DNA of 22,922 nucleotides from a virus. The stretch is from positions 43,775 through 66,696 of the IMG/VR virus record IMGVR_UViG_3300028384_000668; one strand, given 5' to 3'. Position numbers and translations under genes: made by a program. The notes below the pieces were generated by a model. The model searched no databases. It saw only the letters and a list, made by a program, of their open reading frames with translations, and was not told where the DNA came from. Position 1 is the stretch's first letter; each line of letters starts with the position of its first letter. This document shows positions 1,247 through 22,922 of this stretch, piece by piece.

Positions 1247-1861
1247 TTACACCTCGTTAAAACCTGATAGTGACTGTACTCTCACTGTATAGTCAACTTG
1301 AATCAATCTGTTCAGCGATTTTTGTACAGGGTGGAAGATAACGTGTGTAAGTAAACGTCCTGTACCTGTTGCTGAATAAGCCCTTAAACCTAACTCATCA
1401 AAGATATAAGAACTAGTTTCATCAGTAGCGTTATCAAAAGCGTCTTGGCCGCTTGGTTCACCATAGTCTAACAAACAACTAACAAGAATATCTGTATAGT
1501 TTGTACCGCTAACGTGTCTAGTTTCAATTTTGTTACGAATAGGATCTAAGTTGTTTACACTTCTATCGTCAACTACTTTTGAATAGGTTTGGTTATACAA
1601 ACTAGCATTAGTTCCTGTGCTGTTTGGTGTTAGGTATGTAATAATACCAGTAGGGTCAACACTTGTGCCACCATTACCAAATGCCATCTCATAGATCCAG
1701 CCAGTGCCGCCGTTACCTAACGACTCAGCCAGTGAGATACTCATATTTTCGTAATGTATAGCATTACGCTTGTCTACTATAATATCACCACTTTCTGGGT
1801 CACTAATCTTAATGTGCCCTTGTAGTAATACTCCGTTTAAATCATTAAAGTTATCTGCCAT
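1247..1861 (-). CDS. Conserved virion structural protein, tail-collar-fibre-like
   Basis: This is a 204-aa protein beginning MADNFNDLNGVLLQGHIKIS. The N-terminal part contains KRNAIHYENMSISLAESL, followed by IYEMAFGNGGTSVDPTGIITY. This layout (strand, helix, then a G-D/N-G-G-type strand) resembles the N-terminal domain of tail-collar fibre proteins. The C-terminal part has FDELGLRAYS and a hydrophobic LLTHVIFHPVQKSLNRLIQV segment. I recognise the sequence type from marine T4-like phages, where it is carried next to baseplate genes as a structural or hypothetical protein. Position after the gp7-like giant gene would fit the T4 gp8 slot, but the protein is much shorter than T4 gp8 (334 aa) and I do not claim homology. 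The start has an AGGAAAA ribosome-binding site about eight bases upstream, and a late-promoter-like box overlaps the stop codon of the upstream gene. Confidence 0.8.
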   Translation of the reverse strand: MADNFNDLNGVLLQGHIKISDPESGDIIVDKRNAIHYENMSISLAESLGNGGTGWIYEMAFGNGGTSVDPTGIITYLTPNSTGTNASLYNQTYSKVVDDRSVNNLDPIRNKIETRHVSGTNYTDILVSCLLDYGEPSGQDAFDNATDETSSYIFDELGLRAYSATGTGRLLTHVIFHPVQKSLNRLIQVDYTVRVQSLSGFNEV

Positions 1862-1880: not shown

Positions 1881-1888
1881 TATTTATC
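1881..1888 (-). promoter_or_regulatory. T4-type late promoter-like box (GATAAATA)
   Basis: On the minus strand this reads GATAAATA, matching the NATAAATA form of the T4-like late promoter that is known from T4 (TATAAATA) and marine relatives. It overlaps the stop codon of the giant gene and lies about 20 bases upstream of the ATG of the 204-aa virion protein gene, so a transcript would have a very short leader. In AT-rich DNA an eight-base match can occur by chance; the placement at a gene junction is the main support. Confidence 0.4.
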
Positions 1889-4800
1889 GTGGTAGCTCAG
1901 TTGTCTTGTCACGTAAGAACTTAGCAACGTTAGATTCGCTTTGTGCAATTGTTTCTCCAGCATCTGACCAAGTTCTTCCTAATTTTCTAAAGATATCTAC
2001 AGTAGTTCCAATAGGCGGTGGTGTAGTTAATCTTACATATGCGCCTATGTTTTTATTTACTGCAAATTCTGCTTCAAGTGTTGTGTCGCCTTCTGGACTG
2101 TCTTGATCTAAGTAATTGTAAGAGCTTATAGGTGTTTTACGCAATCTACGTCCTGCAACAAACACTTCAATATCTTGTGCTTCCCAATACTCCTCTGGAA
2201 TAGTATCTTTATACCAATCTGTTGCGCTTGCCGGATTAGGAATAGGTGCATAAGGTAGCAAAATTTGAACATATTTAATTCCTCCAGGAACTACAAAACT
2301 AGTTTGCGGAGTGTCAATTGGAATACTTGTAAATGGATTTACAACAATTAAATCAAATGCTCCCGGTACGTTAAAGCCTGGAACATCAAATTCTAATTGT
2401 GTGCTGCTAATATATCGTGTAGTAGCTTCTGTTTCACCTACATAAACTTTTACACGCTCAGTAAATCCTTCGCCTGTTACTGTGCAGACTTGCTCGTATA
2501 CACCTTCAACTCTTACAGGGAATGCTGTATTGTTATTAAAGTTGTATTCAATATTTGTAACATTCATTCCTGAGCTGTTTTCATACTCCTCAGATCCTTG
2601 ATCGTATCCCCCTGAAGTAACTGTTAAACGATCAACTTCGTCTTTGTAAGGAAGTGTTGCATCAGGACCTTGTTCCATAAACATTGTACCGGCTTCGTAA
2701 ACGTCTTTAATGCCAGTACCTAATGTACCTCTACGAAGTTGTAGTAATGTATTGTTTTCTCTACCAAAGTATTCAATGCGCTCACCTTCAATAAAGATAA
2801 CGCCCGGATACTTTGAATCAGTTTCTGGATCAGAAAGACTAGTTGCATCAACAACTTCAATTGTTTTATCGTACCAATTTAACGGCTGAGCCAAGTGGTA
2901 TACTTCTTGCAAACGCTTGTAGTGTGTTCTGTTAAGCATGTCTTTAAACTGTCTCCAGCCAAACTTATCAACAATAACACTGTCTGCAAAGTGAATAACT
3001 TGCAACTTATCCCTTTCTGCAGGCTGTTCAGCTAGTTTTACATACTGTTTGTTTGATGTTACAATATAGTCAACATTTGGTATCAACATAGTTCCATTTT
3101 TAACAACCCAAACGTATTGTGCATCTCTTGCTGGCTTACGTAGTGTGATATATCCTTTTTGTAATAGTGCAAAACTATAATACAACGGAGTACCTGGAGT
3201 TGTTTCAGTTTTTTCCGTAACTTCAAAGCTCTGTCTTTCAATGCCCTGGCTCTTGTCATTACTAAACTGATATACTTCTATTTCTTGATCTTCAGCAAAA
3301 ACTTCGTTAAAGTAGATTGTTTGCGGAGTTTTAATAAATTCGTTATCAGAATCTAAGTAACCCATAGCATACTCGCCACTAGTTATAACATAAACTTTTA
3401 GTTCGTCGCCAGCTTCACCAATGCCTTCTGTTAGTGTTAGTGTTGATCCTGGTTGTGATTGCGGGTCTAGTGTTGAATCAAACGACCCTGCACCTTCAAA
3501 AGTCCAAGTTTGCAAGTACTCTAGTTCAATATCATTTAGGTATACTACTAAATCATAACTGTTAACACTTGCTACAGGAATCTGTGTAAGATCCAACTGA
3601 TATTCTCTTTGATTAGCTTTTACTTCAAAACTTTGACTATAGCCAGGATCTAAAATTCTATTTCCTACCTTAACAAGTACAAATGCCTGCTCTGGATTAT
3701 CTTCAAATGGTGCTTGAGATAATTCGTATGCAGTAGTACTCCCGTCTGCTGTAATTTTGTCAATAGTTACTGTGCTGTATTGTTGTGGTACTTCAACGCC
3801 GCCGGCAGCAATTAGTAATTGAATTACTGAATTTTCTGCAGGAGGAGTAGCAAATCTAAGAACAAAGTTATCGCTACGCTCATAAGTGTCGTCTGATTCG
3901 ATTAGTACGGCATCTGCTGCTACACCGTCAACTGTTACATACACATTAGCATTTTCTTCAAATCTTGCATTGGTTAAGAAATCAATAGCAGAGCCATTAC
4001 CGGTAAATGTATCAATTTCTAATACAGTCGTTGCACTAAAGCCAACATTGACAATACTAACTTTAGAGTTATTTGCAGGCGCACTATTAAAGATCAGTTT
4101 GTTTGTTGCAAAATCAAATGTGTAATCGTCTTTAGTTTTGATTACATAATCTACTTTTACAAACAAGTTTTCGATTTGTGTTATTGTCGAACCAATATCA
4201 AATTCTGTTTTAACACCGTTGCCAATATAATTTGTAGAAGTAATTTGACTTGCGCCGCCAGTTGGTTTTTCAAACACTTGAATATCAAGTGTATCAAGAA
4301 CTTGTCCTGGTACAATTTCTTCAGGACCTTTTGAAGTAGTTTGAGTTACAAATCCGTCACCGTCAATATTAATTTCAGCTGCATCAAGTCCTGTAGCAGT
4401 CGAATATGCTAGGTCGCCGCCGCTTACAGCAGTATCATAACTTTCTAGATCAGCAATAAAGCTACCATCTGAAGTATTTTTACGAACAATAATAGTAATT
4501 GTTTGTTCTGTACTATCTTCAACGTCTGTAGGAACACCTAGTTCGTCTAAGTATAAAACAGTTGTTTCGCCGTCGCCTTGTAACGGTAACATTACTGCAT
4601 GTTCATTATCTTCTGTACCTACAGTAGAGCCGTCCCAATTAGGATCGTCCATTCTGCGGTTGCTTACTATTTGTCCATTAATATCATAACTTACTCTGTA
4701 TAAATTATATTCAACACCGTCTTCTAACGGATTAGTTAATGTAATAGATATAGTTGATCCATCAAGTCTAAAAATCTCATCTTCAAACGTTGTATCGTAT

Positions 4801-7800
4801 ACGTCCCAACCTTGAGACATCCAAGGCGCTGCGTTCCAGCCAGTTGTGCCGCCAAATTCAAACGAACGTACTTCAACGCCACCATAGTCAACACCGTCCA
4901 TTAACTGACCAAGTGTCTTACCAAAGTTATCACCTGTTGGCTCGTATGCTAGGTTAATACGATCTTGTGCTTTTAGCAAGTTAAGTGATTTATAATACTC
5001 AATTCTAATTTCTGAGCCGTCTGCTGGAGGATCAACAAATTGAATTTGACCATAATACCTATCATAGCCTTTAGACGTATCTAAAACATTGCTATAAGTG
5101 TACCTTCTTGACAATACTTCGTCGTTGTCTTCAAAAACAGTAACTCGGCTTGTTCTTAAATCCATTGGCCATTTTAAATCAAAGTTAAATGTCTTGCCGC
5201 CGGAAATAAATGTTTCGGTAGTGTCTAGATTAACAAATTCATATGTTCCACTAACTCTGTCAAACTTAATTGATGTTTGTAAACTTCTTACTGGACTGTC
5301 GCCGATAATAGCAAATGCTTTTGCTTCTCTGCCATTTGGTCCTACAGAACCATTAATAGTTACAATCGGTGCTTCAAGATAACCGTTACCTTGATTAACT
5401 ACAATAATAGCACTAATAGAACCGTTACGCCCTAATGTTACTTTAGTAGTTGCACCAGTGCCGCCGCCGCCACTTAGTGTTGCTACAGGCGGTGTTTCGT
5501 ATCCTTCGCCAGCATCTGCTAGTTCAATTCTTATAACCTTATAACCTGCATTGTCTAACCAGTTTTTATTTGGATATGTATTAACTTCTTCAACATTATC
5601 AGCAACAATTCCGTCCGGCGATGCTTTAACACGTAATGGCTGAATGCTATCGTCCGCAGCTACATATCTAGCAGGTAAATCAAAGTCTGTTGTAACAGTT
5701 TGAGAATTGTCTAATGCTTCGTAAGAACTTAGATATTCTCTAACTTTTGTTTTATACGGTTTGACTTCTCTAATGTATTCTTCATAACTAGGAAGATTGT
5801 CGTTTTGGAAGTTTACTTTTTGTTCTAAATTGCCAACATTGTGTTTTGCTTTTAAGAAACTAGTTTTGAACACCCAGTCTACATAATTTTGTTCTGCAAA
5901 TACATATCGCAAACTTGAGAAGAATAAGTTGTTATATTCTAACAACAAGTCATCGATAAACACATTGTCTTTAATTGTATTAAGAATAATTCTTGTTTCA
6001 GTCGACGGTAAACTATCAAATGTTAAAACGTCATAACTTGTTGTGTCAAAACCTACTAGTGCTGCTGTTGAATCATATAGTGTAGGACGAATTTGAATAG
6101 TTCCGTTTTGTCTACCAATTGTTTTATAATTTACACTATAGTCAACACCTGTTTGTGCATCAATTTTTTGTAGTAACAACCATCCGCCGGTGCCAACGTT
6201 TTGAATTTTAATAACATCGCCAATAGAATCATTAATAGTTGTTAAGTCATATGAAAAATCAATAATATAGTCAATTTTTGTAAATGCATTGTAGTTTTCT
6301 GCATACCAATCAATATATTCCCAATATAAGTTTACGTCATATGCTTGACTTTCTACCAAGATCCATTCTTTTGCAACAGTGTCACGTTCATAAAGTGACC
6401 ACTTGCCATTTAAAGAAGTATCATTTTTAACTAATACTGTGTAACGTCTTACTGATAATTGTGTACTACTGCTATAGTTAGTTCCAGTACTTTCTACAAT
6501 TACATCAGTTACTCTGCCTTGATTATCAATAACTGTAGTAAGTTCTGCATCAGTACCTGTGCCCAATACTTTAACTGTTGGTGCTTGTAAATAACCTCTT
6601 CCTGCGTTTGTTATCTCTACACGGATAATTTTACCATCTTCTACAACAGGTGTTAACACTGCTTGTTCAGCTTTAGCAACGCCAACAAATTGTAAATCTA
6701 TTAGTGCGTCAACGCTTCTATCCCAGCGTCTACTTTGTTCAGTAGGTTCTGGTTGACTCTGTGTTAATGGTGTAATGTCTTTATCGTCTGCAATTAAGTT
6801 TGCCGCTAATACACTATTAATACGAGTAACAACTTGTTTAAGAGCTTCTTCTCTATTAATAAACCACCCTTGTCTTGGTCTATTAAGAATACCATACTTT
6901 TCTTTCGCACTTAATTCTGGTGCAGGAACTTGTCTATTCTGCTCATCATAACCTACTAAGCTATCAAACCATTTTTTCTGTATGTCTCTACCAGGAAGAC
7001 TTGTTTCTAATCCTTCAGTTATGATTTGATATTGATTATGAATATTTGTATCTTGGTTATCAATTGTCCAGTATTGCATACTCAATACAATATCTTGACT
7101 TCTTACTAGACTTTCGCAATTGTGTACTGCAAATTGGTCATTGCCAATTAAACTAACAAATCTGTATCCCTGTGCAGCAGGATCTTCAATTAATCTTGCA
7201 ACATCACGAGCACTAGTTCTTCTATCTTCTACTGGCGGAAGTGTAGTTTTATTTCCTACCCAATAGTAATAGTACGTCTTAAATACACCAACTGCTTCGT
7301 TATACTCTCTTTTAACTACATATGCATCGTCACCGTTTTTAGTAGTACCAGTAACGCCTTTGGCTAATCCTTCACTAGTTCCGCTAATGTTATCCCACTC
7401 GCTTGGTAATAGATCTGACTTTACCCATTCGTAAACGTCAATAGTATTAATACTAGCAAATCTGCTATTCCAGTTGTTAGAACTAAAAATTACGTCAGAC
7501 TGATACGGATTTTTAAACTTAGCAGAATTTAAATCCCACCATAGTTGACCAACCTGTGTAGATCCCCAACTGTTTGTTGCGTCTGTGTTAGGTAATGTGC
7601 CAGTTGTGTATGTTGCAGGATCATAATAAGTTTTGTATGTTAATTCTTGTTCTGCAGGTCCTGCAATCTTACCTTGAAGAACATCAATATAATCAATGTA
7701 ATCAACAATTTTGTTAGTACTTTTATCGTACAACATAGCACGTTTAATTTTACTTACATCAACTGTGTCTTTAGATTGTCTTAGTGTGTTCCAAATCTTA

Positions 7801-10800
7801 GTATTTTCTTTTAGTCTATAGTTTACAACAACGCCTTGTTTTGTATCTGTATCTAATATCGGTAATCCTACATAAATGTGATTATTTTTTAGCAATATAT
7901 TTTCGCCAAAGAATAATACATTAGGAACATCATAATCGATAGTTTCTGCATAGATTAACGATTCGTCTAATTTTTCATATACCCTAACTACTCCAGTGTC
8001 TTTACTAAAGGCTTTAAAGTCAGTCATCTTATTATCAAATGTAGTTTGTGGAGCAGTATTTCCTACACTATCTCCGTCAAATGTAGTTGAAATAAACGAA
8101 TCTCCGTTGCGTGACCCTACAATTAACCTTTCGCCGTCAAAGTCTACACTCCATCCAAATAGTTCTGTTTTTTCTTTAGTAGGACTGTATAGATTTTGTG
8201 ATAGTGTAAATGTTCCGCTTTCCTGTTTATAAACATAAACTCTACCTTGGTCTAGCTGTTCAGTATCGTCATAAGGTGCACCGACAGCAATCAAGCGTCC
8301 GTCATTGCTAACTGCTACATTGTTGCCAAAATTAGTATTTTTATTTGGTGCTTGTATTGTTTGATATCTATAATAAGAACCGTTATTATTTCTGTATACT
8401 TCGACAGTATTTGCAGTTTCGCCTTCGTATTCTGTAGTAACTACTAGTATCTCTCCATTTTTACTAATATCAAACGCTTTAGCAAACTGTAATAATGCAG
8501 TGTCTTCAATTACTGCTTCTTGATCTCCTACAATGTTTCCAGTAGTATTAGGCAAGTAACCTAGATAATCAGATACTTCACCTGCTACAACTTCTTCCCA
8601 GTCGTTAGCAGTAAACGCACTTGGTCCTGTAGTTGTAAGTGCTTTATACAATTTTTGATTGTAAAATACCAATTCGTCTGCAAAATAAGTTGTGTCAGAA
8701 TCGTATGGTCCTCTATAAGATTTATTTCTTGAAGATTCCCATCCGTATGTAACACCGTCAAATGTTCCATTTTTGTAAATGTAAAGTTTACCAAAGTTAT
8801 CAGTTGTATTGTTACCTGATGCTTTAACAAATAGTTTATCGTTGGTGCCGCTACGAGAAATTTTAATATCTATACCTAATTGACGATTGCTTGCTCTATC
8901 TGAAGCAATATAAGAATTAATTTTTACAAAAGAACCAATTCCTCGTCTTTCATATACACTAAACATACCTTCGTTTGTTTTAGTAGTTGCAGGAACAACA
9001 CCAGACGCTGTTGCAGGAACATTATATATAATATCCCAGTCGTTGTTGTCAATAGTTGGCTTATTAGCAGCTCTAGGAATACCTAGTACAGTTTCTTCTC
9101 TATAGAACCAATATTCGCCAGTAGTAATAGTATCTTCTCTTGTTGCAACGTCCGCATCAACATCCTGTACCGGAATATTGTCGCCGTTGTCAATAACAAT
9201 AAACTTACCAATATTGTCAGGAGCATATTCAAAACTTCTACCAAAGATCTGACCAAATACACGTTGTCCTGAAATAGGATCATAAACAACATCGCCCGAA
9301 CCGTCTGATAAAAATTCAATTTCTCTGTTTTCATTAAAATCAGAGCCAAGTGCCCATGTTCCTGTAACATTCTTAACAAAAATCCTACCGTTGTTAGTGT
9401 CGTACTTTTGATAGAATACAATTTCAGCAGTACCTAAGTTTGTTACATCTCTTACTGTTAGTCCTACTTTAGGTTCTAAAGGTTCGCCGCCAAACTGTTT
9501 TGTAATTCTAATATCAATATAACCGTCCCACACATCATATACTGTATGCTGTGTATTAATTTGATTTTCTGTTAATCCAATATTAGATAGATCTCTGTCA
9601 CCAAGTTCGTTTGTTAAAAACGGAGGCATTGTATTATAGAAAATATCCAGCGCAGGATTGCCGTCATCGCCTGCTGCAATTATTCCAGTTTCTAATTCAT
9701 CTGTCAACGGCTTAGGAGCTTTAAGGACGTACAAAGACGACTCAAAGTCTCCAATTACACCGAGTGGTCCTGGACTACCTCTATAACTTAGAGTAATAAG
9801 TTTGTTATACTCAGTATCTCTACTGTTTACTGTAGTATTTGCATAGTCTAAATTGTTGTAATAAAAACGATTTAAGTCTGAACCTGTTGTAGGAGTAACA
9901 TCTACAAACACAAGTCCTCTGCCTAGATCACTATTAATATCGTCGACTACCTGATAAGAACTAGTATTAATTCTCCAATAGCCTCCCCAATACTCATCAG
10001 CATTTGCCTGTGTATCGTTAGGTGCTACAGTTTCATATTCACCAACAAACTCACCAATGTCTGTTGTTAACGAACCTACTAATCCAAATGTACCGTTTTG
10101 TGCTTTAATATAAATTGTTGCCTTTGCGCCAACATTAAACGTATATGCAACTGTACCAAATCCAGATATTGTTTCAACAACTTGTCCTACTAACGGAATA
10201 GTGTTTGAGTTTTCAACATACAAAATACTGTCAATTTTTTCTGCAATAGTATGTTTATCAGTTAAAAACGATGCAGATAATTCCGGAATATCTCCGTTAA
10301 ACGGTAATACTGACACAGGCGTTACGCTATTCTGATTAGCATAAGTTAGATCGTTCCATTTAAGTTTAACACTATCACCAATGCCAGATCCTTCGTACAT
10401 GTCCTTTGGTGCTTTAACTATAAAGTGATCTGTAAAGAAATCGCTCTGTACTTCATCTGTAGTAAACGGATAGTCGCCTGTGAGTATTACAGGTTTAATA
10501 TCGTCGTCTTCTTCTGTTTGTAACAAGTCAATCATAATCTGCGGAACTGATTCAAAACTTCCAAAAGGAATTTGAGCAGTCGCGCCGTCTACGTCCTTGT
10601 TTGCTTGCCAAAGGTTGTTTTTATATTCAACAATATCAAGTGCATCATAGTTTGTTTCTTCTACATACGTTTCTTTGTATGTACTTTTAACATTAGATGC
10701 TTTTGGAGATCCAACAATTAAATATCTACCATCAGCCGAAACTGCAATACTGCTACCAAATGCTTGCCCACTATCAGCAATTTCACTTTCTGCTTCAACA

Positions 10801-13800
10801 ACTTGATTAAGTTGAAACGATCCAGATCCGCCTGCTCTAACATACACAAACACCTTTCCGTCACCATTGTCAGGCGCACCTACGCATAGTAATGTGTTAT
10901 TGTCACTAACTGCAAGAGCATACCCATAGTTATGATCTATTCCAGATTGCGAGTTTTCAATCACTTGATGATTATTAAATCCTGGTGTGTTTTCTAAAAC
11001 TTTCCAACGATTAGATTCATCTGCATCTACCCATACTCTACTAATACCTTGTTTATACGTTTGTACTAATTCGCTTGCTTGCTCGTAGTCTGATACTCTT
11101 ACACTGACAAATTTAGAAATAATACTGTTGGTTATTGTTTCCAATGCATCAATTTCTGTATTGTCAATTGTTACGATATTGTTTAAAATTTTTGTAATCT
11201 TTGTAAAAATTTGTACATTATTACCGTCTGCATTTGTATATTCAACACCAATAATTTCATCTACTACAAACTGTTTTGGAATTGTTGCAAATTGTAACTG
11301 TTTGTTATCGCCATCTTCTAATACTGCTTCAAGTACTATATCTTGCTGTAGGAAAGAATACACATCCCATGATTGTCCTACATTGCCTATCCATACAAGG
11401 TCTCTATGACTAATGTCGCTGTATTCAATGTTTACAATAGAATCGTATTCGTCTATTACAAACTGTACATCTTCATCGTTTACATATCCGCTATTTCTTG
11501 TATACGTTTCATTAACATACTTTGTCGGAAATGGCTTGTGATTATAATCATTAGGACGCAAATACACTTCAAATGGCTTAATTCTATATACTAAATCAGT
11601 TTCTTCGCCTGATGTAGTATTAACTAGTTGTACGCTCTGAGGTTCTAATTTAAATTTACTTTCATCTAAAATAAATTCTACTTCTTCAAATCCTTCAGCT
11701 GCACCGTATTGACCAGTTTTAATTGCCCATTCTTCGTAAAATTCTAGGCTATCTTTATCTGCACTGCCTAGCACATCAAATAATTTTGTAAGAGCATTTT
11801 TAGTACCTTTATCTTGGATCATGCCCTGATAAAATTTATACTGGCTTACATCATCGTTAATAATATTTGCTAAGTAATCTCTATTTTGATAGCCAATTAA
11901 ATGCTGTGCAAATTTTTGCTGCTCAGTGTCAAAGTTGTCAGTATCTAGATCATAAAAATCTGCAAACTGGTTTGTTTTATATTCAAAGTTAGGAATCAAT
12001 TCCATTTCAGGAACATCATTTAATAAAGACCAATTCCTTGCTTCAAAGTTTTGTGAACCAGCAACTTTATTAATAGCACTATAGTAAAACTCTTTGTATT
12101 TTACAATTTCACCAATAGCATAATCTTGCCACGGTTCCCATTCACTAACTGTTGCGTTATCAAATATAAATCCAGGAATATTTAAACTACCGTCCCAGTC
12201 ACCTGTTCTATAACCTAAAACCTTAATACGCTGCTGTCTATACCCAGGTTCCTGATCGTAAATAATGTCACCAAACACTGTTTTATTATCAATAGTAACA
12301 ACATGTTCTTTTTGAACTAAAGATAAGCGTACAGCAAAAATACCATCTTCTGTTGCTTTAGGCCTTACTACGAACTCTTGCGGATTTTCTCTAGTTAAAG
12401 ATACGTTTTGTGGCTGTAGTTTTTTGCCGTCTGCTTTTAATAAACTGTATCCATAAAATGTATCATAGATATCGTCAACTATCGAATATTCTGATCTAAA
12501 TTTAACTTGGAATGCGCCCGGACTTAGTGTAATAACACTTCCTGCTCCCCAGTTTTGAGTTGTCCAGAACATAAACTCTTTAGCAGTTGTTTCCCAATTT
12601 GAAACAAATTCACTGTCAGGTGCATAGTAATCAAAAACAAATCCTTGACTTTCTAGATAGTATCCGTATCCTAGTAAAAAGTCTACAACATCTTGTACTT
12701 TTTCAAACACAGTTCCGTATGGAACACGTTCTACATTATTTTTGTATGCTTTTCTAAAATATGCTTCGCGGCCGCCTTCTTGAGGAAGTTGAGGCAGTTT
12801 AACAAACTTGTCAGTGTCAAATTCTGTTCCGCTGGTATGAGACTCAGTAACTCTATAATACGAGCTTTGGAATCCTACAATAGCATCTTTTACATAAGTT
12901 TTATTTCCATCCCATTCAACATAACTTGCACTAATTCCGCCAATTCTAATTACTGGATCGTTTTGTAGTGAAATGGCTTTATTGATATCAAAATACGGAG
13001 CTTCTCTATCATAACCTCTTACAATGAATCCGTAACTTTGTTTTTCTATAATAACACCACTATATGTAATATTTTTAACAGGCGCACTGGTATTCAAAGA
13101 AATTTTATAGTTTTCTTCAGGAATAAAAACGTTTCCTTTATTTGTAGGAGTTCTACTATCAAGTATTAATTTAAATTTGTCTTTGTTAGTATAACCGCCT
13201 ACTTTAAAACCAATTTGATTATTAATACGTTTTAAATTATCTTTATAAGTGCTATACGGTGTTTCAACGTTAGAAGCAAGATAATCAAATACATAATTTA
13301 TTAAGCCCGATGAATATGCTCTAGTATCTTCATTAACAGTATTAGGAAATACAACATCTTCTAAATTAATTACAGTATTATTGTTAATGTAATTAATTTG
13401 ACTAGATGTTCCTCTAAACTGACGCTGTCTGTCAAAGATAGTTGCAAATGTTTGAGCAGGCTGATTAAGGACCAGCGAAGTAATTAGCGAAAACGGATAT
13501 TCTGAACTTCTGCGCCACGCTGTTTCTACAGGGCTATAATCACCAAATACAAAGTTATTATCAAGTTCGTTAGTGTTATATGTTTTAATAAAACTACTTA
13601 AAACAGGACTAACTAAATTTCCATCTTCGTCAACAGGAATATGAGTAGTAATAAATTTACGTGCTACCTTGTTGTTTATCATACCGGATGTATTTGGATA
13701 TCTAATAATACCTGCTTCAATATCTTCCCACATCAAAAAGTTGTTTTTTGTATATGGTGCTTCGCCGTACTGGTTGTCCCACCAGTCTGGTTTAATACTA

Positions 13801-16800
13801 AACCCTTGCATTTCCCAAGGATGCGTATGCGGGCGATCAGTATCATATGCATACTTGTATACTGCTCTCCAATAACCGTGTACACGGTTATCACTAACAT
13901 CTACCATTCCTGTGTGATTAAATGTAAACGAATTTTCTCTTTCGTATGCATTATTTTTTGTATAATCGTCATCTACCAATTGTAGCCATTGTACAAAATC
14001 GCTGATCATACTATCATTAATTTGATTTTCAGTTAATCCTGTTTTTCTGTTGTATCCAGGAATGTAATCGTAAAGATCAAATAAATTTGCATCATAATTT
14101 ACTTTAATATTATTAAAAATTCGTTTTTCTAACTCAAGTAATAAGTCATCTCTAAAATCTTCATAAGCTATGGTAATACTTCCGTCATGACCTTGAATAA
14201 CACTTTGGCTTTCTAAGTATGTGTCGTCTGTCATTATTTGAGGGACAAACTTAGGATACAATCCTAACTTAGTTGGTGTTGGTGGAATGTAGCTACCGTT
14301 AGTTGTTTCGTATTCGTAAATATCAATAATGTCGCCTTGCTGTTTGGTAGCTGTAACAATAACAAAGCCTTGATTGTTAAAAGTATAGTCTACACCATTT
14401 ACAAGTTGCTCTCCGTTTAAATAAACCTGTACTGCTGTATCACTAAGTGTTTCTAGGTCAAACACTCGACTTAATGCAAAAAAGTTGTTTTCTGAATCAA
14501 ATACTTCTGTAGAATTTTTAATTGCACCGGTAAATGGAACCATATCACTAAAGTAATAAGGCATTGTATTAACTTTGTCTTTTGTTAATTCATTTAAAAT
14601 AAGATCAACATGATCTTTTACTGGGCCGCTAAACCCTAGCTGTTCTGCTTTTTGTAAGAACGATCTTTTAAATTTTCCATATTCTCTTCTTGCAAATTTA
14701 AGAGATTTAATTACATTTGCATCTTTATTAACAATATGATATACTGGAATGTTAAGTGGAGACGAGTGTTTTACAATACGTTTACCATATTTAGATATTG
14801 ATCCTAAATCTCTTAAGTTACTAGATCCTGGAAATATTCCATCAAAAACATCAAGTTCTTCAACAATAGTACTAACGTGATCGTTAACTTCTCCTAAGGT
14901 AAATTCATTAATGTTTTTGTTTAAAGGATTCTTTTCTAAGTTACTTGCAATTTCATATTTTCCGTTTTCAGTTTTAGACGCACTTGACTTAGTTTTAATA
15001 ATAATATTGTCGCCAATTTCAAGAGGAGAAGTAAAACTAATTGTAAGATTAGAATTAGCATCCTGAGATGTTGTATAATCTTTATCTTTAAATTTTAAAG
15101 AATTGTTAACATACACTCTTAACCACAAGTCATCTAATAACGCACTTTGCTCATAAACGTCTACAGTATAAAATGTTCGTGTGTTATCGTTAGTATACTG
15201 TCTTATCACAGGCTGAGAACTTAACTCTTTTGCTTTGGTCCAACCGTTTAAAATTTCATACGAATCTCTTCCTGTATATTTTCTAATATACCCTTCACTA
15301 ATTTTTTTAGTCTGAGGAAGTTCGTTTGTTGCTGCATAAGTTAGTGAATCTTGTAGGAAATTACATTCAAAAACAATGTCGCCGACGTTTTCAATATTTC
15401 GATATGTTAGAGGAAAACCTAATTCTACATCATTAGATCCACTTGCTCTTTTATAAGAAAATAGCTCGGTACCTTTGAATGTCGAAGACTCAAAATAAGA
15501 GTCATCTGCATAACTGTAGCCGCTATCGTCAAACGCATCAAACAGGGGCTGTTGATTTAATGTAGTTTTTTGTTGTGCGATTTTCCAATCTGTACCATTG
15601 AACCAAAGCATACTTCCTTTAAATTCTGTACCTTGTTTACAAAGTAATACTTCGTTTTCTAAAGGGGTTGTATCTGTAGCTTCTTTTAAAGTAATTTGTC
15701 TTGTATTTCTAAAAGTAATAAACTCTACTTCAAAAATTTTACCCTTTACTAGAGGATCAGCATCGGCAGTAAATAAAATTCTCATGCCATTGGTTAGATC
15801 TACATCGTCAATATTATAACCTTGTGAGCCTTCAATAGTACTAAAAACGTCACTAGTAAAATTATCTACAAGATCAACACTTTGCTTAATACTTGTACCA
15901 TAATTAAATAGTTTTAAGTTAGCTTCAAATTCAATAATAGGACGAGTTGCACGAGCTGTTTGATCAAGATCAACCAACTGATTATTAATTTTTGCACTTG
16001 CTTCAATTACATCTTTGTGGAACCATCTGTTGTATTTTGACCATAAGTTCCCGTCTTGACTTGCTCTGTTAATTGTAATATAATCTTTGTTAACAGGATA
16101 CCCAATCGCTTCTGAATAAGGAAGTTCATCAAATCCTTCATCGTCAAAGTCTACTAATAAGTCTGACGTATATGAACTAGGAACATTTAACTCAGTTTCT
16201 GACATAAGAACAATACTGTTACCAACACCTTCCACATACCAAAAACCATTAGCATACTTTTCAGGAGTTACTTTTCCAGTAAACTCTACTTTCATACCAT
16301 TAGAAAGTTTAATACCTGCTTCACTAGTATATGTTTTAGTACCTAAGATTTCTTGTTCAACATCAATCGATGTAGCTTCAGTTATATCTAAAACATTAAT
16401 TGTGCCACTAGCATATAAGTCGTTATCTGACATATAATAAATTAAGTCAGGAGTAGATGTAGTAAGCTCAACTTCAATTGTTCCTGCTTCAACACTTTGT
16501 TGACTTACTTCTGTACGTAAGTTAAATGCTGTATCTAGATCCCAAAAGTCTAAATCTAATTCGTCTGTTGCTACATGATCTCCGTTACAAACGTAGATGC
16601 CGCCATTGTAATTTACTTTATCACCTTGGATATAAGTTACGTTTGGTCTAAATCTAGGAGCAGTATCTTTTCTAGTTCTAAAAGAAAGTGGATTACCAAC
16701 TGCATCAACTTCAAATATATATTTGATTCCTCTAAACAATGTTAACACAGGATTTTGTGTTTTTCCGTCAGGAGTAAACACATAACCAAAGTTTTCACCG

Positions 16801-17333
16801 TTGTCTACTGTAGTAACTTTAATAGTTTTTTCAACGTTATCTTTTTCGCCCGCAATTTGAACAGGACGAGGTCCATTTGGCAACCAATAGTATTCACGGA
16901 AGTTTGTAAACTTGTCCCAGTCAATATTAGGATTCCAAGAGTAATATTCTTGTCTATTAAGGATACTATGATCTTTAACACTTGATCCTAGTGCAGAAAG
17001 TTGATTAATATAATCATTGTAATCTGCATAAAATTGAACATTATTTAAATCGTCTTTCACAACTACCGCAGGTTCAAATTGATAATCTTCTCTTGACTTT
17101 GAAACATCACCAATATAAAAATCGTCTTTGGTATAACCTTTGGCTTCTTTTTGTCCAAAATATCCATTTAACTTTTCAGCAACACCTGGCTGTATTAGTT
17201 GGTCAATTGTACTTGAAAGAAACTTGTTATTAACCTGTGTTCTAAAATATCTAGGTAAGTGATCTGCACTTTTTCTACGATTATTCTTACCTGCTGGCAA
17301 GTTAGTAGGATTTTGATCGTCGTTGTATGCCAT
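1884..17333 (-). CDS. Giant multidomain baseplate/virion structural protein (5149 aa), in the position of gp7
   Basis: This is a single uninterrupted reading frame of 5149 codons. It starts with ATG at 17333 in a TAATG overlap with the gp6 stop, with GGAGG at 17346-17350 (spacing about 12). T4 gp7, the wedge protein in this slot, is 1032 aa, so this is about five times longer; gp7 equivalence rests on synteny only. No signal peptide, membrane segment or enzymatic motif was recognised. Visible modules by residue: W/Y-rich carbohydrate-binding-like modules (CBM5/12 style) near 230-265, 1472-1513, 1731-1772, 2228-2262 and 2880-2913; an aromatic block with DRPHTHPW near 1150-1190; FG-GAP-like propeller blades between 2137 and 3172 with a ~578-residue insert at 2211-2788; G-x-G-Y repeats near 3566-3630 and 3928-3995; tail-fibre-like beta modules from about 4058 to the end; and an IPT/TIG-like domain near 4944-5014. 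A peripheral wedge component with several sugar-binding or trimeric appendage surfaces is inferred. It is certainly coding; the molecular role is less certain. Confidence 0.85.
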   Translation of the reverse strand: MAYNDDQNPTNLPAGKNNRRKSADHLPRYFRTQVNNKFLSSTIDQLIQPGVAEKLNGYFGQKEAKGYTKDDFYIGDVSKSREDYQFEPAVVVKDDLNNVQFYADYNDYINQLSALGSSVKDHSILNRQEYYSWNPNIDWDKFTNFREYYWLPNGPRPVQIAGEKDNVEKTIKVTTVDNGENFGYVFTPDGKTQNPVLTLFRGIKYIFEVDAVGNPLSFRTRKDTAPRFRPNVTYIQGDKVNYNGGIYVCNGDHVATDELDLDFWDLDTAFNLRTEVSQQSVEAGTIEVELTTSTPDLIYYMSDNDLYASGTINVLDITEATSIDVEQEILGTKTYTSEAGIKLSNGMKVEFTGKVTPEKYANGFWYVEGVGNSIVLMSETELNVPSSYTSDLLVDFDDEGFDELPYSEAIGYPVNKDYITINRASQDGNLWSKYNRWFHKDVIEASAKINNQLVDLDQTARATRPIIEFEANLKLFNYGTSIKQSVDLVDNFTSDVFSTIEGSQGYNIDDVDLTNGMRILFTADADPLVKGKIFEVEFITFRNTRQITLKEATDTTPLENEVLLCKQGTEFKGSMLWFNGTDWKIAQQKTTLNQQPLFDAFDDSGYSYADDSYFESSTFKGTELFSYKRASGSNDVELGFPLTYRNIENVGDIVFECNFLQDSLTYAATNELPQTKKISEGYIRKYTGRDSYEILNGWTKAKELSSQPVIRQYTNDNTRTFYTVDVYEQSALLDDLWLRVYVNNSLKFKDKDYTTSQDANSNLTISFTSPLEIGDNIIIKTKSSASKTENGKYEIASNLEKNPLNKNINEFTLGEVNDHVSTIVEELDVFDGIFPGSSNLRDLGSISKYGKRIVKHSSPLNIPVYHIVNKDANVIKSLKFARREYGKFKRSFLQKAEQLGFSGPVKDHVDLILNELTKDKVNTMPYYFSDMVPFTGAIKNSTEVFDSENNFFALSRVFDLETLSDTAVQVYLNGEQLVNGVDYTFNNQGFVIVTATKQQGDIIDIYEYETTNGSYIPPTPTKLGLYPKFVPQIMTDDTYLESQSVIQGHDGSITIAYEDFRDDLLLELEKRIFNNIKVNYDANLFDLYDYIPGYNRKTGLTENQINDSMISDFVQWLQLVDDDYTKNNAYERENSFTFNHTGMVDVSDNRVHGYWRAVYKYAYDTDRPHTHPWEMQGFSIKPDWWDNQYGEAPYTKNNFLMWEDIEAGIIRYPNTSGMINNKVARKFITTHIPVDEDGNLVSPVLSSFIKTYNTNELDNNFVFGDYSPVETAWRRSSEYPFSLITSLVLNQPAQTFATIFDRQRQFRGTSSQINYINNNTVINLEDVVFPNTVNEDTRAYSSGLINYVFDYLASNVETPYSTYKDNLKRINNQIGFKVGGYTNKDKFKLILDSRTPTNKGNVFIPEENYKISLNTSAPVKNITYSGVIIEKQSYGFIVRGYDREAPYFDINKAISLQNDPVIRIGGISASYVEWDGNKTYVKDAIVGFQSSYYRVTESHTSGTEFDTDKFVKLPQLPQEGGREAYFRKAYKNNVERVPYGTVFEKVQDVVDFLLGYGYYLESQGFVFDYYAPDSEFVSNWETTAKEFMFWTTQNWGAGSVITLSPGAFQVKFRSEYSIVDDIYDTFYGYSLLKADGKKLQPQNVSLTRENPQEFVVRPKATEDGIFAVRLSLVQKEHVVTIDNKTVFGDIIYDQEPGYRQQRIKVLGYRTGDWDGSLNIPGFIFDNATVSEWEPWQDYAIGEIVKYKEFYYSAINKVAGSQNFEARNWSLLNDVPEMELIPNFEYKTNQFADFYDLDTDNFDTEQQKFAQHLIGYQNRDYLANIINDDVSQYKFYQGMIQDKGTKNALTKLFDVLGSADKDSLEFYEEWAIKTGQYGAAEGFEEVEFILDESKFKLEPQSVQLVNTTSGEETDLVYRIKPFEVYLRPNDYNHKPFPTKYVNETYTRNSGYVNDEDVQFVIDEYDSIVNIEYSDISHRDLVWIGNVGQSWDVYSFLQQDIVLEAVLEDGDNKQLQFATIPKQFVVDEIIGVEYTNADGNNVQIFTKITKILNNIVTIDNTEIDALETITNSIISKFVSVRVSDYEQASELVQTYKQGISRVWVDADESNRWKVLENTPGFNNHQVIENSQSGIDHNYGYALAVSDNNTLLCVGAPDNGDGKVFVYVRAGGSGSFQLNQVVEAESEIADSGQAFGSSIAVSADGRYLIVGSPKASNVKSTYKETYVEETNYDALDIVEYKNNLWQANKDVDGATAQIPFGSFESVPQIMIDLLQTEEDDDIKPVILTGDYPFTTDEVQSDFFTDHFIVKAPKDMYEGSGIGDSVKLKWNDLTYANQNSVTPVSVLPFNGDIPELSASFLTDKHTIAEKIDSILYVENSNTIPLVGQVVETISGFGTVAYTFNVGAKATIYIKAQNGTFGLVGSLTTDIGEFVGEYETVAPNDTQANADEYWGGYWRINTSSYQVVDDINSDLGRGLVFVDVTPTTGSDLNRFYYNNLDYANTTVNSRDTEYNKLITLSYRGSPGPLGVIGDFESSLYVLKAPKPLTDELETGIIAAGDDGNPALDIFYNTMPPFLTNELGDRDLSNIGLTENQINTQHTVYDVWDGYIDIRITKQFGGEPLEPKVGLTVRDVTNLGTAEIVFYQKYDTNNGRIFVKNVTGTWALGSDFNENREIEFLSDGSGDVVYDPISGQRVFGQIFGRSFEYAPDNIGKFIVIDNGDNIPVQDVDADVATREDTITTGEYWFYREETVLGIPRAANKPTIDNNDWDIIYNVPATASGVVPATTKTNEGMFSVYERRGIGSFVKINSYIASDRASNRQLGIDIKISRSGTNDKLFVKASGNNTTDNFGKLYIYKNGTFDGVTYGWESSRNKSYRGPYDSDTTYFADELVFYNQKLYKALTTTGPSAFTANDWEEVVAGEVSDYLGYLPNTTGNIVGDQEAVIEDTALLQFAKAFDISKNGEILVVTTEYEGETANTVEVYRNNNGSYYRYQTIQAPNKNTNFGNNVAVSNDGRLIAVGAPYDDTEQLDQGRVYVYKQESGTFTLSQNLYSPTKEKTELFGWSVDFDGERLIVGSRNGDSFISTTFDGDSVGNTAPQTTFDNKMTDFKAFSKDTGVVRVYEKLDESLIYAETIDYDVPNVLFFGENILLKNNHIYVGLPILDTDTKQGVVVNYRLKENTKIWNTLRQSKDTVDVSKIKRAMLYDKSTNKIVDYIDYIDVLQGKIAGPAEQELTYKTYYDPATYTTGTLPNTDATNSWGSTQVGQLWWDLNSAKFKNPYQSDVIFSSNNWNSRFASINTIDVYEWVKSDLLPSEWDNISGTSEGLAKGVTGTTKNGDDAYVVKREYNEAVGVFKTYYYYWVGNKTTLPPVEDRRTSARDVARLIEDPAAQGYRFVSLIGNDQFAVHNCESLVRSQDIVLSMQYWTIDNQDTNIHNQYQIITEGLETSLPGRDIQKKWFDSLVGYDEQNRQVPAPELSAKEKYGILNRPRQGWFINREEALKQVVTRINSVLAANLIADDKDITPLTQSQPEPTEQSRRWDRSVDALIDLQFVGVAKAEQAVLTPVVEDGKIIRVEITNAGRGYLQAPTVKVLGTGTDAELTTVIDNQGRVTDVIVESTGTNYSSSTQLSVRRYTVLVKNDTSLNGKWSLYERDTVAKEWILVESQAYDVNLYWEYIDWYAENYNAFTKIDYIIDFSYDLTTINDSIGDVIKIQNVGTGGWLLLQKIDAQTGVDYSVNYKTIGRQNGTIQIRPTLYDSTAALVGFDTTSYDVLTFDSLPSTETRIILNTIKDNVFIDDLLLEYNNLFFSSLRYVFAEQNYVDWVFKTSFLKAKHNVGNLEQKVNFQNDNLPSYEEYIREVKPYKTKVREYLSSYEALDNSQTVTTDFDLPARYVAADDSIQPLRVKASPDGIVADNVEEVNTYPNKNWLDNAGYKVIRIELADAGEGYETPPVATLSGGGGTGATTKVTLGRNGSISAIIVVNQGNGYLEAPIVTINGSVGPNGREAKAFAIIGDSPVRSLQTSIKFDRVSGTYEFVNLDTTETFISGGKTFNFDLKWPMDLRTSRVTVFEDNDEVLSRRYTYSNVLDTSKGYDRYYGQIQFVDPPADGSEIRIEYYKSLNLLKAQDRINLAYEPTGDNFGKTLGQLMDGVDYGGVEVRSFEFGGTTGWNAAPWMSQGWDVYDTTFEDEIFRLDGSTISITLTNPLEDGVEYNLYRVSYDINGQIVSNRRMDDPNWDGSTVGTEDNEHAVMLPLQGDGETTVLYLDELGVPTDVEDSTEQTITIIVRKNTSDGSFIADLESYDTAVSGGDLAYSTATGLDAAEINIDGDGFVTQTTSKGPEEIVPGQVLDTLDIQVFEKPTGGASQITSTNYIGNGVKTEFDIGSTITQIENLFVKVDYVIKTKDDYTFDFATNKLIFNSAPANNSKVSIVNVGFSATTVLEIDTFTGNGSAIDFLTNARFEENANVYVTVDGVAADAVLIESDDTYERSDNFVLRFATPPAENSVIQLLIAAGGVEVPQQYSTVTIDKITADGSTTAYELSQAPFEDNPEQAFVLVKVGNRILDPGYSQSFEVKANQREYQLDLTQIPVASVNSYDLVVYLNDIELEYLQTWTFEGAGSFDSTLDPQSQPGSTLTLTEGIGEAGDELKVYVITSGEYAMGYLDSDNEFIKTPQTIYFNEVFAEDQEIEVYQFSNDKSQGIERQSFEVTEKTETTPGTPLYYSFALLQKGYITLRKPARDAQYVWVVKNGTMLIPNVDYIVTSNKQYVKLAEQPAERDKLQVIHFADSVIVDKFGWRQFKDMLNRTHYKRLQEVYHLAQPLNWYDKTIEVVDATSLSDPETDSKYPGVIFIEGERIEYFGRENNTLLQLRRGTLGTGIKDVYEAGTMFMEQGPDATLPYKDEVDRLTVTSGGYDQGSEEYENSSGMNVTNIEYNFNNNTAFPVRVEGVYEQVCTVTGEGFTERVKVYVGETEATTRYISSTQLEFDVPGFNVPGAFDLIVVNPFTSIPIDTPQTSFVVPGGIKYVQILLPYAPIPNPASATDWYKDTIPEEYWEAQDIEVFVAGRRLRKTPISSYNYLDQDSPEGDTTLEAEFAVNKNIGAYVRLTTPPPIGTTVDIFRKLGRTWSDAGETIAQSESNVAKFLRDKTTELPR
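9555..9578 (-). repeat. 24-bp near-identical repeat, copy 2 (encodes GLTENQIN)
   Basis: The plus strand reads attaatttgattttc, then t, then gttaatcc. It differs at one of 24 positions from the copy at 14016-14039. Both copies lie in the same reading frame of the giant gene and encode the identical octapeptide GLTENQIN (residues 2586-2593 here). The repeat may be a remnant of internal module duplication or a short shared structural motif. Confidence 0.6.
14016..14039 (-). repeat. 24-bp near-identical repeat, copy 1 (encodes GLTENQIN)
   Basis: The plus strand reads attaatttgattttc, then a, then gttaatcc. It is the partner of the copy at 9555-9578, about 4.5 kb away in the same gene. It encodes GLTENQIN at residues 1099-1106, just before a conserved-looking segment beginning DSMISDFVQWLQLV. 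Confidence 0.6.
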
Positions 17334-21319: not shown

Positions 21320-22922
21320 TTATAGTGGTACTAGGTCGTAGCCCGCTTCAAATTCTTCTGTCTCTTCTTGATAAAGTTCTACTCTATATCTTCCATCTGA
21401 CATGGTTACTATATCGCCGTCTCTATACTTTCCATCATAAACATCGCCGATAATTTGGTCGTCTTGTCCGGGGCGAATACTAGGAAGTGAAGTACTATTA
21501 CTCACTGGTACTGTTGTCGAAGGCACATTTCCTTTAGCAAGAGTAGTTCTTAATCCTAATAAATCTCCTGCTGCTTTACTAGAAGAACCGAGACCTGTAA
21601 ACGAGCTTACTTTAGACAATAATCCAGGTCCTGCAATATCATCAATTGCGCCAACAATACTTTGCCCAACTCCAAATGTAACTGCCTTTCCTGCTTCTAC
21701 AACTGAGTTTATAAGTCCTCCTACAGTTGACGAGTTTATTGCTCCTTTTACAGCTGATAATGCATCCGAAATGCCGCCTGGTAAACTAGCACCAATATTA
21801 GGTTTTTGTATAACGCCGCCTGGCGCAGCGGCTACTGGAGCTTCTTGTGCTTCTGCAGGTTGTGCAGCAGGTGTTTCTCTTACATCTCTTGTTGTATTTT
21901 TCTTGAATGTATCAGGAGTTTTTGCAGGAGTTGCTTGCACTTCTTCTTCCTCTTTGCTGTCTGTCTTTTCAGCAGTAAAAGATGCAGGATCTAAATTCTC
22001 GTGTCCCGCCCAAGGTTCGTGCTGCGGAACTCTAGTAGGAACATTTGCCTCTGCTGCTTCTGCTGCTGCTGGTCCATTCATATCAATTTTACCGGCAGTT
22101 TCAATATGATGTGACGATTTAATATTTGTAGTTCCGCCAGCAGTTAATTTTCCATCTGCACCTGCTTTAATTTCTATATTACTAGCGGCTGTTTGAAATA
22201 TACTTGTTCCTGCGTTCATATGTATATCTCTGCCAGCTTCAAAGTTAATATCTCTGTCTGCTTTAAAATTTAAATCGTTTTCTGTATGTACACTAACGCT
22301 GTCCTGTGCATAGATGTCAATCTTACCATTGCTTGTTAATTCAATCCAAGTTGTACCTCTTGAGTTAGCAATATAAATTAAGTCTTCTGTATTGTGCAGT
22401 AAAATTTGATGTCCTGTGCGAGTTCTTAAACGCACAAGTTCATTATGTGGTAGTGTAGGATCGCCGTCTGTTTCGCCAGCTTCTACATTTGCATAAACAG
22501 GGGGACCGTCTTTTGCAGGTGTTTTTCTTACAAGAGTAGCATCGCCGTCGTCAAACACTAAACTACTGCCGCCTAATCTATTTTGTGCTACTGGAGTTTG
22601 TGCAAAGTTTTCGCCATAGTTAACCCTTGGCGCTCCTGGACGTCTGTCTTGTGGTCCAGGGCTGCTAAAGCCCATTACAGCACTCGGTAATTCACGTCTA
22701 GAACTAGAAGTTGTTAAGCCTCTAATTTCGTCTTCAATTAGTCCTTGTTCTGTTAGCGTGTCTACAGCATCTTGATTTGTAGGCTTAATAAATTTAGTAC
22801 TATCTCTGCCTTTGCCATCTTCTACTTTTTTGTTATATTCAACAACAGGTAATTTTTTAGCTTTATCGCTATCGTTAAATGTTGTTGACACCCAAGGATC
22901 AGGTGTCATAATGTTTGTATGA
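21320..22922 (-). CDS. 5: Baseplate hub/tail spike protein gp5 (T4-like), C-terminal part, 5'-truncated by the window edge
   Basis: The first ATG is at 22909 (529 codons), but the frame stays open to the right edge (H-T-N-I before the Met) and no ribosome-binding site precedes that ATG, so the true start is probably outside. The N-terminal OB-fold expected in gp5/VgrG proteins is not present in the visible part. Numbering from the ATG at 22909: about 155-280 is a spike-type beta-helix region with short periodic strands (LVRLRTRTGHQILLHNTEDL, then repeats such as NDLNFKADRDINFEAGRDIH), the form used in gp5 and VgrG membrane-piercing spikes. RVPQHEPWAGHENLDP (293-308) is a segment I associate with marine T4-like gp5. 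Then follow a Pro/Ala/Glu-rich linker (309-375), a Gly/Ala/Val/Ile-rich segment (376-445) and a small C-terminal module (490-529). No lysozyme domain like that inserted in T4 gp5 is recognisable here. Confidence 0.85.
   Translation of the reverse strand, partial: HTNIMTPDPWVSTTFNDSDKAKKLPVVEYNKKVEDGKGRDSTKFIKPTNQDAVDTLTEQGLIEDEIRGLTTSSSRRELPSAVMGFSSPGPQDRRPGAPRVNYGENFAQTPVAQNRLGGSSLVFDDGDATLVRKTPAKDGPPVYANVEAGETDGDPTLPHNELVRLRTRTGHQILLHNTEDLIYIANSRGTTWIELTSNGKIDIYAQDSVSVHTENDLNFKADRDINFEAGRDIHMNAGTSIFQTAASNIEIKAGADGKLTAGGTTNIKSSHHIETAGKIDMNGPAAAEAAEANVPTRVPQHEPWAGHENLDPASFTAEKTDSKEEEEVQATPAKTPDTFKKNTTRDVRETPAAQPAEAQEAPVAAAPGGVIQKPNIGASLPGGISDALSAVKGAINSSTVGGLINSVVEAGKAVTFGVGQSIVGAIDDIAGPGLLSKVSSFTGLGSSSKAAGDLLGLRTTLAKGNVPSTTVPVSNSTSLPSIRPGQDDQIIGDVYDGKYRDGDIVTMSDGRYRVELYQEETEEFEAGYDLVPL

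Follow-up and report, generated by a model that had tools for sequence, protein, structure and literature searches.

In the closest described systems, the baseplate wedge proteins gp25, gp6 and gp7 of phage T4 have been equated with W, J and I of phage P2 and with TssE, TssF and TssG, and a (gp6)2-gp7 assembly has been described (PMC6300606); in the baseplates studied, the gp7/gpI-type subunit is the attachment point of receptor-binding proteins (PMC10811340). P2 gpI, TssG and gp104 of Listeria phage A511 occupy the same place after the J-, TssF- or gp6-type gene (PMC6300606, PMC10811340). T4 gp7 is reported to be missing from pelagi- and cyanomyophages as well, where VrlC has been proposed as its substitute (PMC7029224). 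Giant genes that follow gp6 are usually annotated just as 'virion structural protein', and others have found members of one family of them in virions: CBB_236 was detected there with 21 peptides (PMC5259590), and phAPEC6 gp245, a 382-kDa protein encoded beside the baseplate wedge gp244, with 17 (PMC7247149). From its size and neighbour gene, gp245 is probably a homolog of the family considered here, and a further member, PA5oct gp355, has a record annotated with ESI-MS/MS.

The window, that is the whole stretch of 22,922 nucleotides analysed here, is the 22.9-kb end of an IMG/VR virus record of 66.7 kb, and carries in local order a gp5-type, a gp25-type and a gp6-type gene, the giant gene and a gene for a 204-aa protein (Table 1). 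The giant gene is a single ORF that starts with ATG and has no internal stop, exactly as first reported and on the minus strand, and its start overlaps the gp6 gene by one base, on the last base of gp6. Its product would have a mass of ~580 kDa and a pI of 4.5, and its presence in the virion is predicted from the homologs named above. Homologs of the downstream 204-aa protein are encoded 3' of the giant gene in both Atu_ph07 (51% identity) and PA5oct (39% identity), the latter detected by MS. We note that gp6 is also enlarged, with 1155 aa in the window and ~1140–1320 aa in related phages against 660 aa in T4, and that the gp5-type start may be missing because the frame (21320-22921) is open up to the contig end.

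Table 1. Genes of the window and features of the giant protein (coordinates in the window; aa, residues of the giant protein)
Feature	Coordinates	Strand	Evidence or remark
Giant baseplate-type structural protein, 5149 aa	1884..17333	-	ORF, phrog_10938
gp6-type baseplate wedge protein, 1155 aa	17333..20800	-	phrog_10646 E 2e-299
gp25-type baseplate wedge protein, 148 aa	20858..21304	-	PHROG profile search
gp5-type hub protein	21320..22909	-	ORF and PHROG profile search
Conserved 204-aa downstream protein	1247..1861	-	homologs after giant gene in Atu_ph07, PA5oct
Block N, aa 10-163	16845..17306	-	7/7 isolated jumbo homologs, E 2e-16 to 8e-39
Chitin-binding-type module 1, aa 227-268	16530..16655	-	PF02839 E 2e-5, internal profile
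Beta-sandwich repeat, T7-tail-fibre N-terminal type, aa 696-786	14976..15248	-	internal profile; family probable
Second beta-sandwich repeat, same T7-tail-fibre type, aa 916-1012	14298..14588	-	internal profile
Block A, aa 1012-1200	13734..14300	-	block profile search
Chitin-binding-type module 2, aa 1471-1514	12792..12923	-	Pfam, internal profile, local matches to chitin-binding folds
Block B, aa 1530-1728	12150..12746	-	block profile search
Chitin-binding-type module 3, aa 1731-1772	12018..12143	-	internal profile; clean 50-aa insertion
Block K, aa 1779-1960, helical, KGT motif aa 1842-1844	11454..11999	-	candidate wedge-contact core
Propeller blades 1-2, aa 2120-2217	10683..10976	-	Pfam, internal profile, model, Foldseek
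Chitin-binding-type module 4, aa 2222-2263, after blade 2	10545..10670	-	internal profile
517-aa region between blades 2 and 3, aa 2264-2780	8994..10544	-	internal profile, model
Propeller blade 3, aa 2781-2857	8763..8993	-	internal profile, model
Chitin-binding-type module 5, aa 2875-2916, after blade 3	8586..8711	-	Milano tail-spike match 8fqc_P1 E 1.7e-5
Propeller blades 4-7, aa 2940-3173	7815..8516	-	PF14312 E 4e-12, internal profile, model, Foldseek
Block C, aa 3175-3470	6924..7811	-	block profile search
YxxPP-type repeat 1, aa 3567-3631	6441..6635	-	internal profile
Block D, aa 3640-3900	5634..6416	-	6/7 isolates
YxxPP-type repeat 2, aa 3931-3996	5346..5543	-	PHROG search and internal profile
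Beta-sandwich repeat, aa 4017-4118	4980..5285	-	internal profile
Four consecutive beta-sandwich repeats, aa 4348-4786	2976..4292	-	internal profile
TIG (Ig-like) domain, aa 4948-4999	2337..2492	-	PF01833 E 1.7e-5, over cut-off
Weak beta-sandwich repeat, aa 5033-5121	1971..2237	-	internal profile

The sheer size of the frame, together with its being broken into two ORFs in two relatives (L058 and L126), might suggest an assembly artefact or the fusion of several separate genes, and a mis-joined assembly had been allowed for initially. However, a metagenomic relative (L014) encodes a protein of exactly 5149 aa with 83% identity and no internal stop, dN/dS for this pair of genes is 0.055–0.119 in each 500-codon window, propeller region included, 40 of 80 IMG/VR loci yield full-length frames (4896–5609 aa, median 5029), and the shorter homologs of isolated phages are also single ORFs. 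Because dN/dS is low throughout and 40 relatives are full length, mis-joining is excluded, and we give the artefact reading a negligible chance.

Three consecutive segments of the protein match PHROG 10938, 'virion structural protein' (E 4e-162, 5e-105 and 2e-79), the fourth, C-terminal one having no match to that profile. The initial annotation, a protein of structural type at the place of gp7, holds. By tblastn the family is found in ~60 phage records, nearly all of them of jumbo phages, among them RaK2, PBECO4, CBB, Salmonella phage Munch, Erwinia and Xanthomonas phages, PA5oct, Atu_ph07, Phosso, Vibrio phage 2.275.O and SCTP-2, and the gp6 gene as query retrieves largely the same set. Of the seven isolated jumbo phages that were fetched, six have the homolog directly after gp6, as does CBB; the exception is SCTP-2 (L003), in which the giant gene and gp6 lie ~92 kb apart on opposite strands. 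The window protein belongs to the same family as RaK2 gp465, PBECO4 gp538, CBB_236, PA5oct gp355, Atu_ph07 gp180 and Phosso XYS97451, with which it shares five blocks in a common order and the place after gp6, and it is longer than the homologs of isolates (5149 vs 3326–4555 aa, individually 3326 in RaK2, 3333 in PBECO4, 3340 in CBB, 3771 in the Vibrio phage, 3807 in SCTP-2, 3857 in PA5oct, 4449 in Atu_ph07 and 4555 in Phosso). Its size, singled out at first for comparison, is normal for the family and well inside the range of the full-length IMG/VR relatives given above.

In a scan of IMG/VR, 599 of the 600 stretches listed encode a relative, so that the family, with at least 599 such stretches, is common in public viral contigs, an abundance that is no unbiased census, the relatives having been picked by similarity to the window. 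As further queries of IMG/VR, PA5oct yielded 13 loci, and Atu_ph07 and Vibrio 2.275.O none that were new. One IMG/VR contig (UViG_2974739009, 121 kb; L093 and L094) carries two gp7 copies, perhaps through assembly duplication or the joining of two phages.

Judged from these relatives, the source is likely to be an uncultured relative of the phages of the Rak2/Atu_ph07/PA5oct group, and presumably a jumbo phage as they are. It is this group that forms the main comparison class, not the pelagi- and cyanophages that had been suggested as such. The pelagiphage HTVC008M, one of the marine T4-like phages, also has large proteins in the baseplate region; its gp55, the gene after gp6, is 1016 aa long and matches the window protein only in the YxxPP-type repeats, and its VrlC (2001 aa) shows no sequence match to the family. 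VrlC was accordingly rejected as the same protein.

Profiles of six conserved stretches (N, A, B, K, C and D) were searched across all homologs, and the order N-A-B-K-C is identical in 7/7 isolates and in the metagenomic relatives, with D present in six of the seven isolates. What is new here is the anatomy: fixed blocks, a K-C slot whose content is specific to the lineage, and a 50-aa insert between B and K. The gap between B and K, which chitin-binding-type module 3 fills, is 48–50 aa in the window clade and in the relatives nearest to it (49–50 aa in the clade), and zero in all seven isolates, in which B and K abut. The slot between K and C measures 68 aa in PBECO4, 105 in RaK2, 172 in the Vibrio phage, 206 in PA5oct, 431 in SCTP-2, 566–1023 in L121–L124, 1160–1471 in the window clade (42 members) and 1403–1426 in Phosso and Atu_ph07. 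Its content differs as well: PBECO4 has next to nothing there, Atu_ph07 and Phosso have YxxPP repeats, and L121–L124 and the window clade have FG-GAP repeats. When the window protein is set against the seven isolates, both the propeller in the K-C slot and the B-K insert occur in the window only. These clean insertions relative to shorter homologs show the protein to be, as described earlier, an accretion of modules and not one enlarged domain; its beta-rich make-up was corroborated in part, by Pfam matches and one good fold model. As a side observation, the giant frame is split before block K in L058 (4738-4742) and just before block C in L126 (16903-16928), each of which might be a natural split or a sequencing frameshift.

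The good fold model is that of the slot, in which Pfam FG-GAP_2 also matches. For aa 2120–3260 the mean pLDDT is 84.7, and Foldseek with this model retrieves integrin-alpha headpieces (E 6e-9, many entries below 1e-6) as well as FG-GAP proteins of phages and giant viruses, so that aa 2120–3173 share the fold of the integrin-alpha headpiece and other FG-GAP propellers. Read from sequence and model together, the propeller is seven-bladed, blades 3 and 4 being weak and blade 7 (aa 3139–3173) assigned by eye. Unlike that of integrin-alpha, it has no DxDxDG calcium loops, which were sought in the blades and are absent, and it is interrupted by two chitin-binding-type modules, one following blade 2 and the other blade 3, and by the 517-aa region. 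Since the slot of L121–L124 has FG-GAP matches and no such modules, nested insertion inside the propeller would be the simpler history, with the modules probably having entered a pre-existing propeller.

Five modules of the chitin-binding (CBM5/12-like) type were assigned along the protein by profile and, in part, by modelled fold, and for these carbohydrate binding is putative. Pfam CBM_5_12 (PF02839) scores three of the five, all under its curated cut-off, two of them narrowly (E 1e-5 to 2e-5). In the model of the core (aa 1000–2020), compared with PDB folds, there is no significant match, and the credible local ones are to chitin-binding domains: 1ed7, the chitin-binding domain of chitinase A1 (rmsd 1.8 Å over 44 residues), and chitin deacetylases, with Foldseek E values that are not significant and best probabilities of 0.95–1.00. 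Module 2 is present in Atu_ph07, Phosso, PA5oct and SCTP-2 and absent from RaK2 and PBECO4; module 3 is absent, with abutting flanks, from all seven isolates.

In a PDB sequence search, the family profile of the propeller region found first, at module 5, the tail-spike protein gp124 of phage Milano (E 1.7e-5), while the N-terminal region, the C-terminal region, gp6 and the 204-aa protein gave nothing significant. The Milano module is CBM5/12-like, as is module 5, but belongs to the N-terminal docking part of a trimeric spike, whereas the window module is embedded in a giant protein. It lies in the tail-binding part of gp124 and contacts the wedge proteins BW2 and BW3, the stretch 100-RTDLPPGPFDPANWQ-115 touching BW3 (PMC10811340). 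Because the Milano module touches the wedge, chitin-binding-type modules may dock proteins and not bind sugars, and the glycan-contacting surfaces that had been suggested for the protein are only one option. One could suppose more generally that the modules and the propeller are assembly adaptors that dock fibres, spikes or whiskers onto the wedge, which would also suit the missing calcium loops of the blades and the several fibre types and tail whiskers that phages of this group can bear. Module 3, however, as a lineage-specific insertion between framework blocks, hardly looks essential for assembly, and the modules are similar, too, to the genuine chitin-binding domains found in chitinases. 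We take this possibility seriously while leaning somewhat against it; it is compatible with a wedge position of the protein.

As to that position, the gene order gp5-gp25-gp6-giant equals P2 V-W-J-I, and because the order gp25-gp6-X equals both W-J-I and TssE-F-G, we place the giant protein in the gp7-type position. Homology was not detectable: profile-profile comparison with T4 gp7 gave none (hhalign probability 0.4%), and Tail_P2_I (PF09684) matched neither in the phage's own genome nor in the jumbo genomes. The gp7 profile matched in none of the jumbo genomes, a low-power negative from a set without a positive control; Baseplate_J (PF04865), searched in the window phage's own genome, gave no match. 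Sizes also differ, the window protein having 5149 aa against 1032 in T4 gp7 (a length we verified), 176 in P2 gpI and 1309 in A511 gp104. A KG(T) that lies in a helical part of block K is invariant and resembles KGTIGA of P2 gpI, RGTIPA of A511 gp104, KGTKAA of HTVC008M gp55 and KGIEAS of T4 gp7. Appealing by eye, this KGT was rejected as a gp7/gpI signature, since in a matrix test it did not rise significantly above shuffled sequences and was not the best-ranked string in most phages. In the core model, which was made without partners and gave no significant match to a trifurcation-domain fold, confidence is lowest in block K; this would fit a part that folds only with gp6 but is no evidence of it.

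Our best explanation, and in our estimate a fairly probable one, is that the protein is the outermost (peripheral) subunit of the baseplate wedge, corresponding in position to T4 gp7, P2 gpI and TssG, with an extensible arm. Against it stand the failure to detect sequence homology to T4 gp7 or Tail_P2_I, the non-significant KGT test, the core model with its low-confidence block K and no significant PDB fold match, and the SCTP-2 giant gene, which is not beside gp6. These same absences of gp7, gpI or TssG homology and the unlinked gene of SCTP-2, together with the many fibre-type beta modules, might instead suggest a distal receptor-binding or fibre-like protein that is merely encoded after gp6, another protein taking the gp7 position. 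We consider this unlikely: the framework is shared by phages as far apart as enterobacterial and rhizobial ones, which sets it off from host-specific fibres, in the other isolates fetched the gene comes after gp25-gp6, and no other gp7 homolog turned up in the complete jumbo genomes, although that negative is of low power.

If the protein is the peripheral wedge subunit, the fixed framework N-A-B-K-C, usually with D, most likely would pack on the gp6 dimer through the helical block K and build the wedge. The extra modules have been inserted between framework blocks, leaving the framework undisturbed. The largest variable stretch is the single K-C slot, filled here by a propeller interrupted by two modules and the 517-aa region. 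The added modules would probably project outward from the baseplate rim, where they might make contact with glycans or proteins on the host surface or else hold fibres in place. A stronger version, to which we attach a rather small chance, would have the arm exchangeable, with recognition modules swapped in this one slot, so that in the window phage a wedge-fused propeller, and not a separate fibre, would be the receptor-binding head.

The comparison gives a testable map for these giant genes, with five constant blocks, one lineage-variable slot and one 50-aa insertion site, which shows structural biologists the residues to place by gp6 and those to seek at the rim of a jumbo-phage baseplate. 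It also gives a defined starting point for studying how jumbo phages acquire or alter their contacts with hosts, and it cautions that phage-baseplate modules labelled 'chitin-binding' can serve docking and not the binding of sugars.

Lastly, a few features of the surrounding contig deserve mention. Eleven N bases lie within its stretch 40001-46000 (L010). Beside the baseplate genes on the same contig (L008 and L009, bases 1-40000) lies a dense cluster that encodes six or more radical SAM proteins, of which one bears a B12-binding and one a SPASM domain, together with a tryptophan halogenase (PF04820, E 2e-79), a TauD dioxygenase, an Asp/Asn hydroxylase-type protein, an AMP-binding protein and an Mtd_N tropism-type protein. 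Radical SAM genes likewise lie a few genes 3' of the giant gene in Atu_ph07 and Phosso.
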